Below are positions 165 through 5,156 of a stretch of 50,833 nt of DNA, piece by piece. The position numbers were made by a program, and so were the translations under genes. Each line of letters starts with the position of its first letter. The first letter of the stretch is position 1. Below the pieces are notes generated by a model that saw only the letters and a list, made by a program, of their open reading frames with translations, had not been told where the DNA came from and made no database searches. The DNA is from Clostridia bacterium (GTDB taxonomy: Bacteria; Bacillota; Clostridia; Oscillospirales; CAG-272): positions 1-50,833 of the forward strand of contig JAFQPI010000030.1 in NCBI GenBank assembly GCA_017411805.1. The letters run 5' to 3'.

Positions 165-1328
165 ATGGCAAACAAACGCAGACCGCAAGGTGACGGCACA
201 ATCAGAAAAAGAAACGACGGACGATGGGAAGCCCGAATCATCATCGGACACAAGAACGATGGTTCTCCCATATATAAGTCGGCATTCGCCAAAACGCAGA
301 AAAGCGCGTTGAAGGAACTTCATCAGCTCATAGAGCTGTACCGTGACGTTGACCTCACTGAAGACTGCCGAATGACACTCGGCGAGTGGCTCGACAAGTG
401 GCTGGATGAGTATATGATATTCGCTATCCGAGAAAGCACGCTTGATTCCTATCGGGGTATGGTGAAAAACCAAGTCAAGCCCTTCATCGGAAATAAGCAG
501 CTGGCATCACTAACCACCGCAGACGTGCAAAAATTTTATAATAGAATCAAAAAGGAAGGTCGCGTCCGTAAGCATCCCGTTCACGGCAAAACGCTTGCCG
601 ATAGCATGGTCAGAGGCGTCCACATGATGCTCCACGAAGCCCTTGACATGGCGGTCAAGGAAAGATTGCTGGCGAAAAACCCGACAAACGGCACGACCAT
701 CCCCAAGTGCAACTATCCCGAAAAGCAGATCCTTGGCGACAATCAGCTTGAAACCTTCCTTGAAGCCATCAGGGGTCAAGAGTACTGGTGCGACTTCTTC
801 TACGTGGAGGTCATGACAGGACTCAGGCGAGGTGAGATATGCGGACTGAAGTGGCAGGATATCGACTTTGAGGAAAACAAACTTCGAGTGAAGCGGTCGG
901 TATCGGTCAAAAGAGGCGGTGGCGTGAATATCGGCGAGACCAAGACCGAAACAGGTGTCCGCTGTATTGAGATGCCGCCAAGCGTGGCTGAACTGTTGAA
1001 AAATCGAAAGCAAATGGCAATCACCGAGTGGGTGTTCCCGGCGTTCTTGAATCCCGAACAGCCGATACACCCCCAAGCGGCCTACCGCAAGCTCAAGGTG
1101 ATACTGAAAAACGCCGAGCTTCCGTTGATACGCTTTCACGACCTGCGCCATACCTTTGCGACTCACGCAACGCAGGGCGGTGTCGATCCCAAGACCTTGG
1201 CAGGCATTCTCGGGCATACCAACGCAAGCTTCACGCTGGACACCTACACCCACGTAACGAGCGATATGCAAAAAAGCGCATCCGCCATCGTGGGCAACAT
1301 GATGAAAAATATAATGATAAAGGAGTAA
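165..1328 (+). CDS. Tyrosine recombinase / integrase 1
   Basis: Full-length (387 aa) phage/ICE-type tyrosine recombinase that would cut and rejoin attachment sites during integration and excision. Residues about 1-55 are an AP2-like arm-binding domain (basic start, then GRWEARI and a Lys-rich strand), 68-170 the SAM-like core-binding domain, 190-370 the catalytic domain. The catalytic set is visible: R221 in TGLRRGE, H325 and R328 in HDLRHT, H351 in LGHT, and nucleophile Y361 in DTYTHV. A purine-rich AAGGA lies about 10 bases before the ATG. It is followed after 3 bp by a second integrase, and the attachment-site scars lie 2 kb downstream. The pair therefore marks the right end of an element that extends left of the window. 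Which att unit it acts on cannot be decided from sequence. Confidence 0.93.
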   Translation: MANKRRPQGDGTIRKRNDGRWEARIIIGHKNDGSPIYKSAFAKTQKSALKELHQLIELYRDVDLTEDCRMTLGEWLDKWLDEYMIFAIRESTLDSYRGMVKNQVKPFIGNKQLASLTTADVQKFYNRIKKEGRVRKHPVHGKTLADSMVRGVHMMLHEALDMAVKERLLAKNPTNGTTIPKCNYPEKQILGDNQLETFLEAIRGQEYWCDFFYVEVMTGLRRGEICGLKWQDIDFEENKLRVKRSVSVKRGGGVNIGETKTETGVRCIEMPPSVAELLKNRKQMAITEWVFPAFLNPEQPIHPQAAYRKLKVILKNAELPLIRFHDLRHTFATHATQGGVDPKTLAGILGHTNASFTLDTYTHVTSDMQKSASAIVGNMMKNIMIKE

Positions 1329-1331
1329 TCA

Positions 1332-2771
1332 ATGGCAAAAAGAAAATACGGCGAAGGAAGCGTATTCCTTCGCAAGGACGGACGATGGGAAGGACGTATC
1401 GTGGTAGGTTATCATGACAACGGCAATCCCAAGACCAAAAACGTAACGGCTAAAACACAGGCTGAATGTAAGGAAAAGCTCCAAGCCCTCAAGGAGCAAT
1501 GCGGTCGCACCACAGACCGCCTCAAGCCGGACATGCCGTTTGGCGACTGGATAGATTTCTGGTATCAGAATTTCTCCAAGCCGAAGATCAGACCGACCAC
1601 GCAAGAGTGCTACGAAAACAGGATCTACAATCACATCATCCCCGAGATCGGTAAGATACCGCTGTGTAAGCTGACACAGAACGATCTGCAACAGTTCTAC
1701 GCACGGCTGAAGAAGGGCGGCAGACGCAGGCTCACCGAATTTTACGGCGAGGGCTTGTCCGACAGAATGGTGCGCTCCTGCCACACCAGCTGTCGAACCG
1801 CGCTGGAAAAGGCGGTGGCGGAAGGACTCATCACCGCAAACCCTGCCATCGGTTGCAGACTGCCACCGAAAAAGGCGAAGGAGATGCAGGTGCTGACACA
1901 GGACGAAATACAGAGATTTCTGATCCAAGCGCACGAGGAAGGATATTACGAGTTCTTCCTTCTGGAACTGACCACAGGCATGCGCCGTGGGGAGATACTC
2001 GGACTTCAATGGAAGGATGTGAACTTCAACACAGGGGAACTTCACATCAGGCGGCAGGTCGTAAAGAAAGGAGCTCAAACGCTGATCTCCAAGCCCAAGA
2101 CGAAATCCTCGATACGCACGCTCATCCTGCCGCCCGATATGCTGGATATCCTTGCGGAGCACAAGAAAAACGCTACCTGCGAGTGGGTATTCCCATCGCC
2201 CGTCAAGGAAGGTGAGCCGAGGAATCCTGCATCCCTGTACGGCAAATTCCAAAAGATATTGAAACGAGCGCAGTGCAAGAAGGTTCGCTTCCACGACCTA
2301 CGCCACACATTCGCTACGATGGCACTTGAGAATGGTATGGACATCAAAACCCTGTCCGCTATGATAGGACACATCAGCGCGGAGACCACGCTTAATATCT
2401 ATAGTCATATCACCGATACCATGCAGAAGCAGGCGGCGGTCAAGATCGACCGCGAGATCGGCGGTACAGACGCACAGATGCCCGAACCCGAGCCGCCAAA
2501 GGCAAGTGAACAGGTACAGACCAACGCCACGCCGGAGCCGAAATTTGAGCCGTACAAGGGCAAGATACGCAAGCCTGGCACAGGTTGCGTGTATCAGATC
2601 AACGACAACCTTTGGGAAGGAAGCTTCTATCCGAGGATGCCCGATGGCAAGCGGAAGAAGTTCAACGTCTACGCCAAAACGAGAGAAGAATGCGAAAAGC
2701 TGCTCGAAGAAATGATTTCCGAGAAGAAAGCGAAGATCGCAGCTGAAAAGAAAAAAGCGAAAACCGCCTAA
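1332..2771 (+). CDS. Tyrosine recombinase / integrase 2 with duplicated arm-binding domain
   Basis: Second integrase, 479 aa, translationally linked to integrase 1 (AAAGGAG lies in the end of the first gene). N-terminal AP2-like arm-binding domain (about 1-55), core-binding domain (65-170), catalytic domain (185-370) with R218 (TGMRRGE), H321/R324 (HDLRHT), H347 (IGHI) and Y357 (NIYSHI). Unlike integrase 1 it continues for about 110 residues. A Pro/Glu linker (380-408) leads to a second copy of the AP2-like fold at about 411-462 (GTGCVY, LWEGSFYPRM, KFNVYAKTREECEKLLEE), which matches the N-terminal block KFNV/NVTAKT-EC-EKL in order. A Lys/Ala-rich tail ends the protein. The usual size of the family is about 380-400 aa, so the extension is real extra sequence. 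The two integrases are divergent, so this is not a recent duplication. Confidence 0.92.
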   Translation: MAKRKYGEGSVFLRKDGRWEGRIVVGYHDNGNPKTKNVTAKTQAECKEKLQALKEQCGRTTDRLKPDMPFGDWIDFWYQNFSKPKIRPTTQECYENRIYNHIIPEIGKIPLCKLTQNDLQQFYARLKKGGRRRLTEFYGEGLSDRMVRSCHTSCRTALEKAVAEGLITANPAIGCRLPPKKAKEMQVLTQDEIQRFLIQAHEEGYYEFFLLELTTGMRRGEILGLQWKDVNFNTGELHIRRQVVKKGAQTLISKPKTKSSIRTLILPPDMLDILAEHKKNATCEWVFPSPVKEGEPRNPASLYGKFQKILKRAQCKKVRFHDLRHTFATMALENGMDIKTLSAMIGHISAETTLNIYSHITDTMQKQAAVKIDREIGGTDAQMPEPEPPKASEQVQTNATPEPKFEPYKGKIRKPGTGCVYQINDNLWEGSFYPRMPDGKRKKFNVYAKTREECEKLLEEMISEKKAKIAAEKKKAKTA

Positions 2772-2903: not shown

Positions 2904-3284
2904 ATGAGCACAAATTATTATTTAGCTACACAAGACAAACAAGTGAAAGAAAAATATTTTAGCACTTATGAACTCACGGATGAACCAATGTGGGGGTATG
3001 AGATTCATATAGCAACCATATCCTTCGGTTGGATGCCATTATTTCATTCTCAAGAAAAAGCATTTAACTCATATAAAGAGCTAAAGGAACTTGTTGCTAC
3101 CGAACTGTTCGTTCTCTATGATGAATATCTTACTATATTATCGTGGGAGCAATTTGATTCGGAAATTCAAAAATTAATGGAAAGGAAAAACGAGTTACAG
3201 TCACATCTTTCTTACGAGTCCATATATGGCAAGAGATGGTATAAAGACTCCGAAGGATACGAATTTTATCGTGGGCATACTTGA
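2904..3284 (+). CDS. Unknown AT-rich 126-aa protein of the integrated element
   Basis: I do not recognise this family. The gene starts with ATG after AAAGGAG at a 4-base spacing, a strong ribosome site. The product is soluble, without signal peptide or membrane segment, rich in Tyr, Glu, Lys and Trp, with a helical middle (KAFNSYKELKELVATELF). Its base composition is clearly more AT-rich than the integrases and the chromosome, which suggests a separate origin. It lies between two copies of one stem-loop (2780-2809 and 3336-3365), as a gene inserted into the integrase 3' region would. Position as the last gene before the attachment site is typical for cargo of mobile elements, but no function is claimed. 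Confidence 0.75.
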   Translation: MSTNYYLATQDKQVKEKYFSTYELTDEPMWGYEIHIATISFGWMPLFHSQEKAFNSYKELKELVATELFVLYDEYLTILSWEQFDSEIQKLMERKNELQSHLSYESIYGKRWYKDSEGYEFYRGHT

Positions 3285-3390: not shown

Positions 3391-3420
3391 AAAAAGGCTT
3401 TGAGAATTGCTCTCAAAGCC
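3391..3420 (-). terminator. Intrinsic terminator of the element's tRNA-Pro
   Basis: On the minus strand GGCTTTGAGA, a short loop and TCTCAAAGCC are followed by TTTTTCTTTG. It lies 5 bases past the CCA end of the tRNA-Pro, so it ends that transcript. Confidence 0.8.
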
Positions 3421-3424
3421 CAAA

Positions 3425-3499
3425 TGGTCGGGATGACAGGAGTTGAACCTGCTTGGCCCAGTTCCCAAAACTGGTGGGTGACCGTTACCCTACATCCCG
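3425..3499 (-). tRNA. tRNA-Pro(UGG), carried by the element
   Basis: Minus-strand cloverleaf with a perfect 7-bp acceptor stem (CGGGATG/CATCCCG), A73 and encoded CCA. D-stem GGGT/ACCC with GG in the loop; anticodon stem CCAGT/ACTGG around TTTGGGA, giving anticodon UGG; T-stem GCAGG/CCTGT around TTCAACT. C1-G72 and A73 are the usual proline identity elements. Its sequence differs strongly from the tRNA-Pro halves at 3645-3692 and 3849-3896 outside the anticodon loop, so it is not their parent. I see no convincing promoter directly upstream; the promoter at 3917-3945 reads towards it. It may replace the host tRNA-Pro that the element split. Confidence 0.85.
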
Positions 3500-3522
3500 A
3501 TTATTCAATTTTTGCGATTTTC

Positions 3523-3692
3523 CCGTAAGTGGTCAAATCTGTGGTCAAAACATTTTGTTGGTGTTTTTTTGAAAAGGGTAACACCCGAAAAAGTCAATGT
3601 TTTCAAGGGTTTTCGAGCGTTTGAAAAATCAAGAAGCGAAAGCCGCCTGCATGCTCCCAAACGTCGCGCGCTACCAACTGCGCCACACCCCG
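3523..3692. repeat. Attachment-site unit A (direct repeat, 204-bp period)
   Basis: About 170 bp that recur with strong similarity at 3727-3896. Each unit begins with two GTGGTCAAA boxes 12 bp apart (possible integrase arm sites), continues through CTTTCAAGGGTTTTC about 80 bases later, and ends in the 5' half of a tRNA-Pro gene read on the minus strand. Layout resembles an attachment site with arm and core parts. Confidence 0.75.
3645..3692 (-). pseudogene. tRNA-Pro 5' half, scar 1
   Basis: From 3692 leftwards the minus strand reads a tRNA-Pro acceptor 5' strand (CGGGGTG), D-arm (GCGC...GCGC) and anticodon loop TTTGGGA. The anticodon stem cannot close: the 5' side is CGACG but the 3' side is GCATG. 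No T-arm or acceptor 3' strand follows. The mismatch starts right after the anticodon loop, as expected if strands were exchanged there. Confidence 0.75.
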
Positions 3693-3726
3693 AAGTGTGA
3701 AAAATATTCGATTTTTAGGTCAATTT

Positions 3727-3896
3727 CCGTAAGTGGTCAAATCTGTGGTCAAAACATTTTGTCGGTGTCTTTTTGAAAAGGCAAACAGCCGAAAAAGTGA
3801 GTGCTTTCAAGGGTTTTCAGCGTTTTAGAAAACTCACGGCAGGAAACTGCCTGCATGCTCCCAAACGTCGCGCGCTACCAACTGCGCCACACCCCG
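3727..3896. repeat. Attachment-site unit B (direct repeat, 204-bp period)
   Basis: Second copy of the 170-bp unit with the same pair of GTGGTCAAA boxes and the same tRNA-Pro 5' half. It directly adjoins the host tRNA promoter, so it marks the boundary to the chromosome. Confidence 0.75.
3849..3896 (-). pseudogene. tRNA-Pro 5' half, scar 2 (at host promoter)
   Basis: Identical in plan to scar 1: acceptor 5' strand, D-arm and anticodon loop of tRNA-Pro(UGG), then a non-matching GCATGCAGG and no T-arm. It starts about 14 bases after the expected transcription start of the promoter at 3917-3945, so this is the original 5' end of the chromosomal gene. Confidence 0.75.
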
Positions 3897-3916: not shown

Positions 3917-3945
3917 ATTATACCACGAAATTGTGCGAATGTCTA
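3917..3945 (-). promoter_or_regulatory. Promoter of the split host tRNA-Pro
   Basis: Minus strand TAGACA, 17 bp, TATAAT; predicted start near 3910, just before the tRNA half at 3896. Confidence 0.8.
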
Positions 3946-4066: not shown

Positions 4067-4735
4067 ATGAAGATTAAAGGTGCAATTTTTGATATGGACG
4101 GAACGCTCATCAATTCGCTTTGGTGTTGGGATGAGCTTTGGGAATGGGGCGGCAGGACTTATCTTGGTATCGAAGGTTTCAGACCTGCACCCGAATTCGA
4201 CAAGGCTGTGCGCACGATGGTGCTTGCCGATGCGATGGATTATATTCACGAAAAGTGCGGCATCGCGGGCAGCGGCAAGGAGATACTCGATCATTTCAAT
4301 GCCATTCTTCCCGAACTCTATTGGACCAAGATCCCGATGAAGGAGGGCGCGCGAGAGTTCCTCGATTATTGCCTTGAGCAGAATATTCCCATGGTGCTTG
4401 CGTCTGCTACCGAATCGAAGCTTATCGAGATCGCCTTGGAGAAGCACGGTATGCGCAAATATTTCAAGTCGGTGCTTTCATGCGCCGTTATCGGCAAGGG
4501 TAAGGAGCATCCCGACATTTTTGAGGCGGCGCTTAGGGAGCTTGGTACGCCGAGGGAGGAGACTTGGGTCTTCGAGGATTCCTACGTTGCGCTCGAGACC
4601 GCGGCGGCGATCGGTATGCCGACCGTCGGTGTTTTTGATCGCTACGCTTTTGAGCACGAGAGACTCGAGAAGTCTGCGATGCATTATATCGGCGACGGCG
4701 AGACCTTGATGAAGCTCGTTCCTTTTGAAAAATGA
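4067..4735 (+). CDS. HAD-superfamily phosphatase (beta-phosphoglucomutase-like)
   Basis: Cytoplasmic 222-aa hydrolase of the HAD superfamily, subfamily I with a helical cap (residues about 18-85). Motif I is DMDGT with nucleophile D9 and acid/base D11; motif II is LASATES, motif III the Lys in KGKEHPD, motif IV WVFEDS. This set is shared by sugar-phosphatases and beta-phosphoglucomutases that act on small phosphorylated sugars; the exact substrate cannot be read from sequence. The ATG follows ACGGAGG at 7 bases and a good promoter. It is a single-gene unit with its own terminator and is the first chromosomal gene after the integrated element. Confidence 0.88.
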   Translation: MKIKGAIFDMDGTLINSLWCWDELWEWGGRTYLGIEGFRPAPEFDKAVRTMVLADAMDYIHEKCGIAGSGKEILDHFNAILPELYWTKIPMKEGAREFLDYCLEQNIPMVLASATESKLIEIALEKHGMRKYFKSVLSCAVIGKGKEHPDIFEAALRELGTPREETWVFEDSYVALETAAAIGMPTVGVFDRYAFEHERLEKSAMHYIGDGETLMKLVPFEK

Positions 4736-4772: not shown

Positions 4773-5156
4773 GAGGCAAAAATTTCGCGCCCTTCAATAG
4801 GGACCCACCCCCTCGCTCCTGTCTCGCTGCGGCTCGGTCACGCCGCGGGTCTGACAGTCCCCCAGACTGTCATTAAATACCGCGTCGCCGCTTCGCTACC
4901 CGTAAACCGGGAGGGGGATGCCTTGTTTCTGCTCGAATTTTGATTTTGGATAGAGGCTTTGCCGATATCCATGTAATTTTGCATCTGCAAATAGGGACAC
5001 CTCCCCCACCCCCTCCTCGTGAACCGAGGAGGGGAGCTTAAGAGCGCGTGATTCTTTATTCAGCTTTCTTATTGCCGATAATAAAGACTCTGCAAAAGAA
5101 TAAAGTGTATTAGGGTACCGCCAGATTCAAAAACTATCAGCTTTTTTCTTTTTTAT
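4773..5156. other. Gene-free region with GC-rich intergenic repeats
   Basis: No gene is supported. Two segments start with AATAGGGAC plus a C-rich run (near 4796 and 4990) and contain short hairpins such as ACAGTCCCCCAGACTGT (near 4852) and CCTCCTCGTGAACCGAGGAGG (near 5012). This style of C/G-rich block also occurs inside the foldback element at 26400-26760. The remainder is AT-rich and shows no signal. Confidence 0.45.

Follow-up and report, generated by a model that had tools for sequence, protein, structure and literature searches.

The replacement of a tRNA gene by an integrating element is already known in principle from two cases reported in 2024. In the tRNA-dependent lysogeny of actinobacteriophages, the phage carries a tRNA of the same isotype as the one broken by its integration, and the authors speculate in the cited part of that paper that the carried tRNA might serve as attB for a second plasmid (Guerrero-Bustamante & Hatfull 2024, PMC10865867). 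In Sinorhizobium meliloti, according to the cited text, a tRNA-Leu(UAG) gene inactivated by integration was replaced by a prophage tRNA with the same anticodon, which resembles genes of unrelated species, and the authors propose a diversification of tRNA genes (PMC11476347, 2024). For the phiLM21-like prophages of S. meliloti, the cited part of a later article reports that they show no tRNA-dependent lysogeny (PMC12429752). Prophage Lj965 of Lactobacillus johnsonii, as referred to in PMC10865867, was reported not to rebuild the tRNA and to encode a cognate one.

The locus described here lies in a stretch of 50,833 bp (the window), which represents an entire contig (JAFQPI010000030.1) of a Clostridia bacterium, with the contig edge at position 1 cutting through the island. 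As in the tRNA-dependent lysogeny outlined in PMC10865867, this locus and its relatives combine a tyrosine integrase, an attB in a host tRNA gene and a short core, with the tRNA rebuilt at neither junction. The islands likewise carry a tRNA of the same isotype, the carried anticodon being equal to the broken one in 53/53 loci among the matches listed (44 UGG, 9 CGG). However, actinobacteriophages are temperate phages of Actinobacteria, whereas the elements found here are mostly island-like, reside in Clostridia and have twin integrases; in being island-like they also differ from the phage Lj965. The tRNA of phage Fionnbharth, as described in PMC10865867, overlaps phage gene 37 and is equipped with a strong promoter of its own, whereas the tRNA here is situated ~160 bp from the junction, behind a host promoter and with stacked scars. 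The S. meliloti case involves two prophages in the cited text, which gives neither stacked scars nor a promoter position, and the word 'promoter' is absent from the main text (PMC11476347). The tRNA target, the tyrosine integrase and the displaced tRNA fragment at the far end are shared with canonical tRNA-site islands as outlined for Islander (PMC4383910). These restore their target gene, whereas the islands described here substitute another gene, with no restoration by the 3' part of the island. Within the open-licence literature, an island form in Clostridia, a carried tRNA behind a host promoter and stacked scar arrays were not found.

Read on the minus strand from 3945 to 3391, the locus consists of a promoter-like site, scar 1, a spacer, scar 2, a second spacer, a complete tRNA-Pro(UGG) and a hairpin. 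The host-side promoter-like site (3917..3945, TAGACA-17-TATAAT, 11/12) is the best minus-strand promoter match and lies upstream of scar 1. Sequence comparison identified scar 1 (3859..3896, minus strand) as a 38-nt tRNA-Pro 5' half with the core TTTGGGA at 3865-3859, and scar 2 (3655..3692, minus strand) as a second 5' half with the same core at 3661-3655. The scars are identical, lie on the same strand upstream of the complete tRNA and repeat at a spacing of 204 bp, and no 3' half directly follows either of them in the window. The segment from core 1 to core 2 (3662..3858, minus strand) is read as the remnant left end of an earlier island, comprising a spacer with TTGACCACAGATTTGACCAC, a leader and the beginning of the tRNA gene that this island carried. 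The spacer between scar 1 and scar 2 is ~165 bp, with the second spacer being similar. The latter belongs to the left end of the youngest island (3500..3654, minus strand), in which a spacer with repeats, presumably arm-type-like, is followed by a leader. Weak terminator-like matches were present at both scars.

The complete, CCA-encoded replacement tRNA-Pro(UGG) (3425..3499, minus strand) was the single tRNA-Pro(tgg) called by ARAGORN in the window and scored 53.7 bits with Rfam tRNA (cut-off 29). It is followed by a terminator-like hairpin of 12 pairs and a T-run (3395..3421, minus strand). Its own 5' half agrees with the scar half at 24/37 aligned positions. The sequence-only reading had described this gene as complete, of other sequence, CCA-encoded, furnished with a terminator and lying downstream of the split gene on the same strand, all of which is confirmed. 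The pair formed by TTGACCAC and a tRNA-Pro start motif was found at two places in the window and in none of 100 shuffles.

On the plus strand, two tandem tyrosine integrases, int1 (165..1328, 387 aa) and int2 (1332..2771, 479 aa; 39% identity between the two), are oriented towards the tRNA, from which they are separated by a 126-aa ORF (2904..3284, plus strand) that was without family match in Pfam, PHROGs, NCBIfam and PADLOC at the limits used. It was also observed that int2 repeats its N-terminal region at the C-terminus (20/50 identical), as though fit for two arm sites. Flanking the locus is a gene for a HAD-family hydrolase (4067..4735, plus strand), and intergenic C-rich and G-rich runs are present at 4790-5050.

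Homologues of the HAD-hydrolase gene, with 70-73% identity, were found in three same-genus genomes and served to locate the empty site. One of these (G005) has an intact tRNA-Pro(UGG) of 76 nt at the window's locus, preceded by a promoter that matches that of the window in its −10 context, the sequence around TATAAT being common to both; at the orthologous loci of the other two (G001, G010), no tRNA was seen beside the HAD gene. The comparison with an element-free relative that had been proposed earlier thus yielded an intact gene at the same place. The window's genome gave 27 tRNA matches, its tRNA-Pro genes being GGG and the UGG of the island. The search for another tRNA-Pro(UGG), also proposed earlier, found none in this genome, which is weak evidence because the assembly is 84.68% complete. 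The displaced 3' half was likewise not found in the window's genome, where the matches were the complete tRNA and a tRNA-Leu.

A scan of the genome collection with TTGACCAC and the tRNA-Pro start gave at least 120 loci. Among the 120 matches listed, ARAGORN-based classification gave 53 loci with a scar and a complete tRNA-Pro, 17 with a scar only, 38 with a complete tRNA but no scar by the rule applied and 12 with neither; several loci are near copies (e.g. L142/L146, L120/L128), so these counts do not equal independent events. Many of the 38 scar-less loci are by title from Actinomycetes, Chloroflexi or Proteobacteria and were taken as chance matches, with none such among the 53. Three matches in the viral collection (L096, L097, L098), which are without tRNA, also look like chance. 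Of the scar-only loci among the matches listed, 13/17 lie no more than 250 bp from where the available locus sequence ends. The scar rule requires the letters of the loop and sees only UGG, CGG and GGG scars, being blind to breaks elsewhere. Over the 53 loci among the matches listed, the distance from core to complete tRNA was 134-221 bp (median 161), and 44 loci had a single scar, 8 had two and one had three (L121, counted by hand; the automatic rule counts one of its cores twice and gives four).

Within the order, the motif was present in 20 of 394 genomes (the window's included), which is a lower bound because the motif was exact, and 18 of the 20 had at least one scar; those of L333 and L348 were read as scars from their letters, against the 'full' label of the loose T-arm test. 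Two relatives (G033, G008) have a broken 5' part of the window's tRNA type and a complete tRNA of the other type. An unverified human faecal scaffold outside the 53 (MT835887.1, L324, ~2270-2542) breaks a CGG gene and carries AGG, with the isotype kept and with twin integrases.

Nine irregular loci outside the 53 were also observed. Partly decayed scars were seen in L107, L115, L116 and L180, where the letters by the core are kept and the first part of the tRNA is lost or changed, suggesting decay or selection against the 5' fragment. The core is in place with no tRNA letters before it in L130, L138, L145 and L218, and L209 has a scar with the loop CTTGGGA that was missed by the scar rule. In Lachnoclostridium sp. 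MSJ-17 (L130 / L327), a strong promoter and, after it, non-tRNA sequence precede the core and island end; this may be a scar that has decayed, a secondary site or a joined island end. It should also be noted that one IMG/VR record (L251, IMGVR_UViG_2924261002_000004, 31.5-48.8 kb) contains an intact tRNA-Pro(UGG) that has a promoter of its own and is followed by genes, one of them holin-like by eye. Beyond these genes, a core is joined to an island left end without preceding tRNA letters, with one scar and a second complete tRNA-Pro, possibly a tandem insertion at a non-tRNA core.

The sequence-only reading had seen no promoter belonging to the replacement tRNA itself and had suggested that the host promoter could be read through both scars. 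The strong 11/12 match lies upstream of scar 1, and a single weak match (TTGACC-17-AAAAAT, 9/12, 3536-3508) lies between scar 2 and the complete tRNA. Another 9/12 match lies upstream of scar 2 (3740-3711). Promoters were compared within 80 bp upstream for 53 items, namely 52 of the loci (L188 was dropped, having too little upstream sequence) and the window. Among the matches listed, a promoter match of at least 10/12 was present upstream of the first visible scar in 28/53 items and upstream of the complete tRNA in 4/53, with shuffles reaching 10/12 in ~2.5%. An exact TATAAT was found on the host side in 30/53 items versus 2/53 before the complete tRNA, again among the matches listed. The mean promoter score of the leaders was 8.6 versus 7.9 for leader shuffles (53 items among the matches listed), and a weak promoter may therefore exist in the leader.

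It could be argued on this basis that the replacement tRNA has a leader promoter of its own (TTGACC-17-TAAAAA/AAAAAT, with the −35 overlapping TTGACCAC) and that the host promoter is irrelevant. A 9/12 match recurs in the window and in many leaders, and the Fionnbharth tRNA, with the promoter described for it in PMC10865867, would be a precedent. Set against this are the low counts of strong matches in the leaders relative to the host side, as well as the common strand of carried and broken tRNA in 53/53 loci among the matches listed, an arrangement which the search pattern and the scar rule favour. We regard an exclusive leader promoter as possible and, on balance, unlikely. The greater frequency of strong matches upstream of the outermost visible scar speaks indirectly for the proposed read-through, with the weak leader match and the weak terminator-like matches at the scars speaking against it, and capture of the host promoter by the island tRNA would be the most economical reading.

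The importance of the carried gene was assessed from tRNA complements. In G198, a single contig of 2,694,742 bases with 51 tRNA matches, the tRNA-Pro genes called by ARAGORN are CGG, GGG and the UGG of the island, and the same three are found in the draft genome of Acetivibrio sp. MSJd-27 (G111; record NZ_JAHLPV010000019.1), with 48 tRNA matches. Under standard wobble rules, where CGG, GGG and UGG tRNAs are present, CCA is read by the UGG tRNA only. By these rules, CCA is read in G198 and G111 only by the tRNA of the island. Within the 33 genomes behind UGG loci, a strict pattern detected a single complete UGG gene in 28, a pair in 3 and none in 2. Because this pattern failed to detect the tRNA of the window itself, the genes of G111 and G198 were counted one tRNA at a time; six of the 33 (G116-G119, G121, G122) have a decayed or unrecognisable scar.

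If the host read CCA codons otherwise and the islands carried a tRNA for some other reason, the replacement would be dispensable. A second complete UGG gene is indeed present in 3/33 genomes (G099, G119, G131), but 28/33 have one such gene by the strict pattern (the 2/33 with none reflecting genes which that pattern misses), and G198 and G111 have one when counted tRNA by tRNA, making a dispensable replacement improbable. The sole UGG copy in these two genomes is consistent with a carried tRNA that is needed for survival. The cell presumably depends on the replacement tRNA, and where this gene is the sole copy, deleting it would be harmful.

Displaced 3' halves were sought in the genomes and records behind 35 loci and were seen in 11 genomes. 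Five islands have both ends, measuring from core to core 9.2 kb (G113), 13.9 kb (G198), 17.8 kb (G105), 22.4 kb (G111) and 36.0 kb (G099). When their flanks were joined at the core in silico, ARAGORN called a tRNA-Pro(tgg) in 5/5. With a split tRNA in 5/5 and integrase homologues in 4/5, attB would lie inside the host tRNA gene, and these relatives bear out the earlier suggestion that the element brings a full tRNA-Pro whose anticodon is that of the gene it broke. Target and island are identical around the core over 8, 9, 10, 10 and 10 bp, and the tRNA is therefore rebuilt at neither junction. Tyrosine integrases and tRNA targets are standard for islands (Islander, as outlined in PMC4383910), but ordinary tRNA-site integration with restoration of the target by the island's own 3' fragment is highly improbable given the identity of only 8-10 bp in the five islands, the non-tRNA sequence after the scar's core and the position of the complete tRNA 134-221 bp away (among the matches listed). 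Equally little credence is given to a local tandem duplication of tRNA-Pro with decay of the upstream copies to 5' fragments and no mobile element, which would fit the tandem units of ~180-205 bp but is contradicted for the five relatives, in which the 3' half is found at a distance of 9 to 36 kb and gives a complete tRNA on joining, and against which also stand the adjoining integrases in many loci and the often different sequence of carried and broken tRNA. At most, such a duplication might account for single loci without paired ends.

The anticodon stem of the displaced 3' half fits the visible 5' half in 7 of the 11 genomes (G099, G105, G108, G111, G113, G123 and G126, with one G-U). It does not fit in three (G120, G121, G125), which may be stacked insertions with later loss of a unit, and the 5' half of G116 was unrecognisable. 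In G198, two scars and one displaced 3' half were found in the 60 kb inspected, the half fitting the outer scar. As a separate observation, contig G108:C5 (L252, L253) holds two displaced tRNA-Pro 3' halves that share their downstream letters and are separated by 20 kb, as if from tandem islands.

The sequence-only reading had further proposed that the element would be hard to lose. This does not hold for excision, as recombination between the ends should restore the host gene, and the term 'addiction' would for that reason apply to deletion only. Dependence would bite only if the tRNA were deleted without excision or if the displaced 3' half had decayed. In G105, the displaced acceptor end now pairs poorly, and the host gene may therefore no longer be restorable in that genome.

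Where at least 3 kb of sequence was available beyond the tRNA, 12 of 18 loci had homologues of the window's integrases 3' of it; the figures were 3/16 with 1-3 kb and 1/19 with less (among the matches listed), and all such matches are oriented towards the tRNA. A 13th of the 18 (L156/G111) has its integrase homologues ~8-10 kb inside the island, and none were seen in the other 5/18 (among the matches listed). The G113 island gave no integrase homologue at E 1e-3, and the plasmid collection gave no int2 match of >60% identity among the 5000 records listed. It is likely that integrases of the window's type perform the recombination.

The cargo of the two-ended islands is varied. That of G198 includes HpaII-type and Mrr-type restriction genes with cytosine methylases, and that of G111 includes pPIWI-RE genes, a reverse transcriptase, an AAA ATPase and LlaJI restriction. 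Sugar-related genes were found in G105, a MobL relaxase and metabolic genes in G099, and an AbiJ-domain protein (without PADLOC match) and polyamine-type genes in G113. No phage structural families (Pfam) were detected among 42 proteins scanned from or beside the five islands, yet twin integrases also occur in four virus-labelled records (MT835887.1, MT839022.1 and MT839295.1, all Bacteriophage sp., and one IMG/VR record); for these reasons the elements are called island-like, with phage use being possible.

At least two insertions are stacked in the window. Its 38-nt scars match, letter for letter, the 5'-terminal 38 nt of the carried tRNA in 11/53 loci (among the matches listed), and the 60 nt upstream of scar 2 are identical at 59/60 positions to leaders in L106 and L133; for these reasons scar 2 most likely represents the left end of a sister island that arrived earlier. 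The tRNA of that sister island was most likely the target of the present island, which carries another tRNA type. The gene of scar 1 was probably a replacement too, because the same island-type letters stand behind the host promoter.

The split gene, the short core, the anticodon-matched replacement, the sole UGG copy in two relatives and the stacked scars can be read directly from the DNA letters. The mechanism that we propose would begin with insertion of an island by a tyrosine recombinase at the anticodon loop of tRNA-Pro. The agreement between island and target would extend over TTTGGGA and a few neighbouring bases, leaving the tRNA rebuilt at neither junction. The island would compensate by supplying a full tRNA-Pro with the same anticodon, located ~160 bp inward from the end joined to the host 5' half, and with the replacement on the same strand, the host tRNA promoter could read through the scar into it. 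The carried tRNA, having the same loop, would become the next target, and later insertions would leave stacked 5' half scars. We hold with good confidence that insertion, same-anticodon replacement, host-promoter read-through and serial stacking together form the best explanation of the locus.

Islands in many Clostridia thus appear to break a tRNA-Pro gene and to bring a replacement just behind the host's tRNA promoter, with successive islands leaving half-genes as a fossil record. We lean slightly towards a broader proposal in which a family of islands, several with anti-phage genes, drives a tRNA replacement ratchet in Clostridia: the resident tRNA-Pro would be silenced, its promoter taken over by a tRNA expressed mainly after integration, and this tRNA would be the next landing site. 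The essential CCA-reading tRNA of many species would then be of mobile-element origin, with the scars recording the order of arrival. Some islands carry defence genes, and the site is accordingly a place to look for defence systems. The findings extend tRNA-dependent integration from phage groups to island-like elements of a major group of gut bacteria, repeated at one site, and the stacked scars give the order of successive insertions. They also offer a specific way in which an essential tRNA gene may be exchanged and make integration-coupled expression testable.
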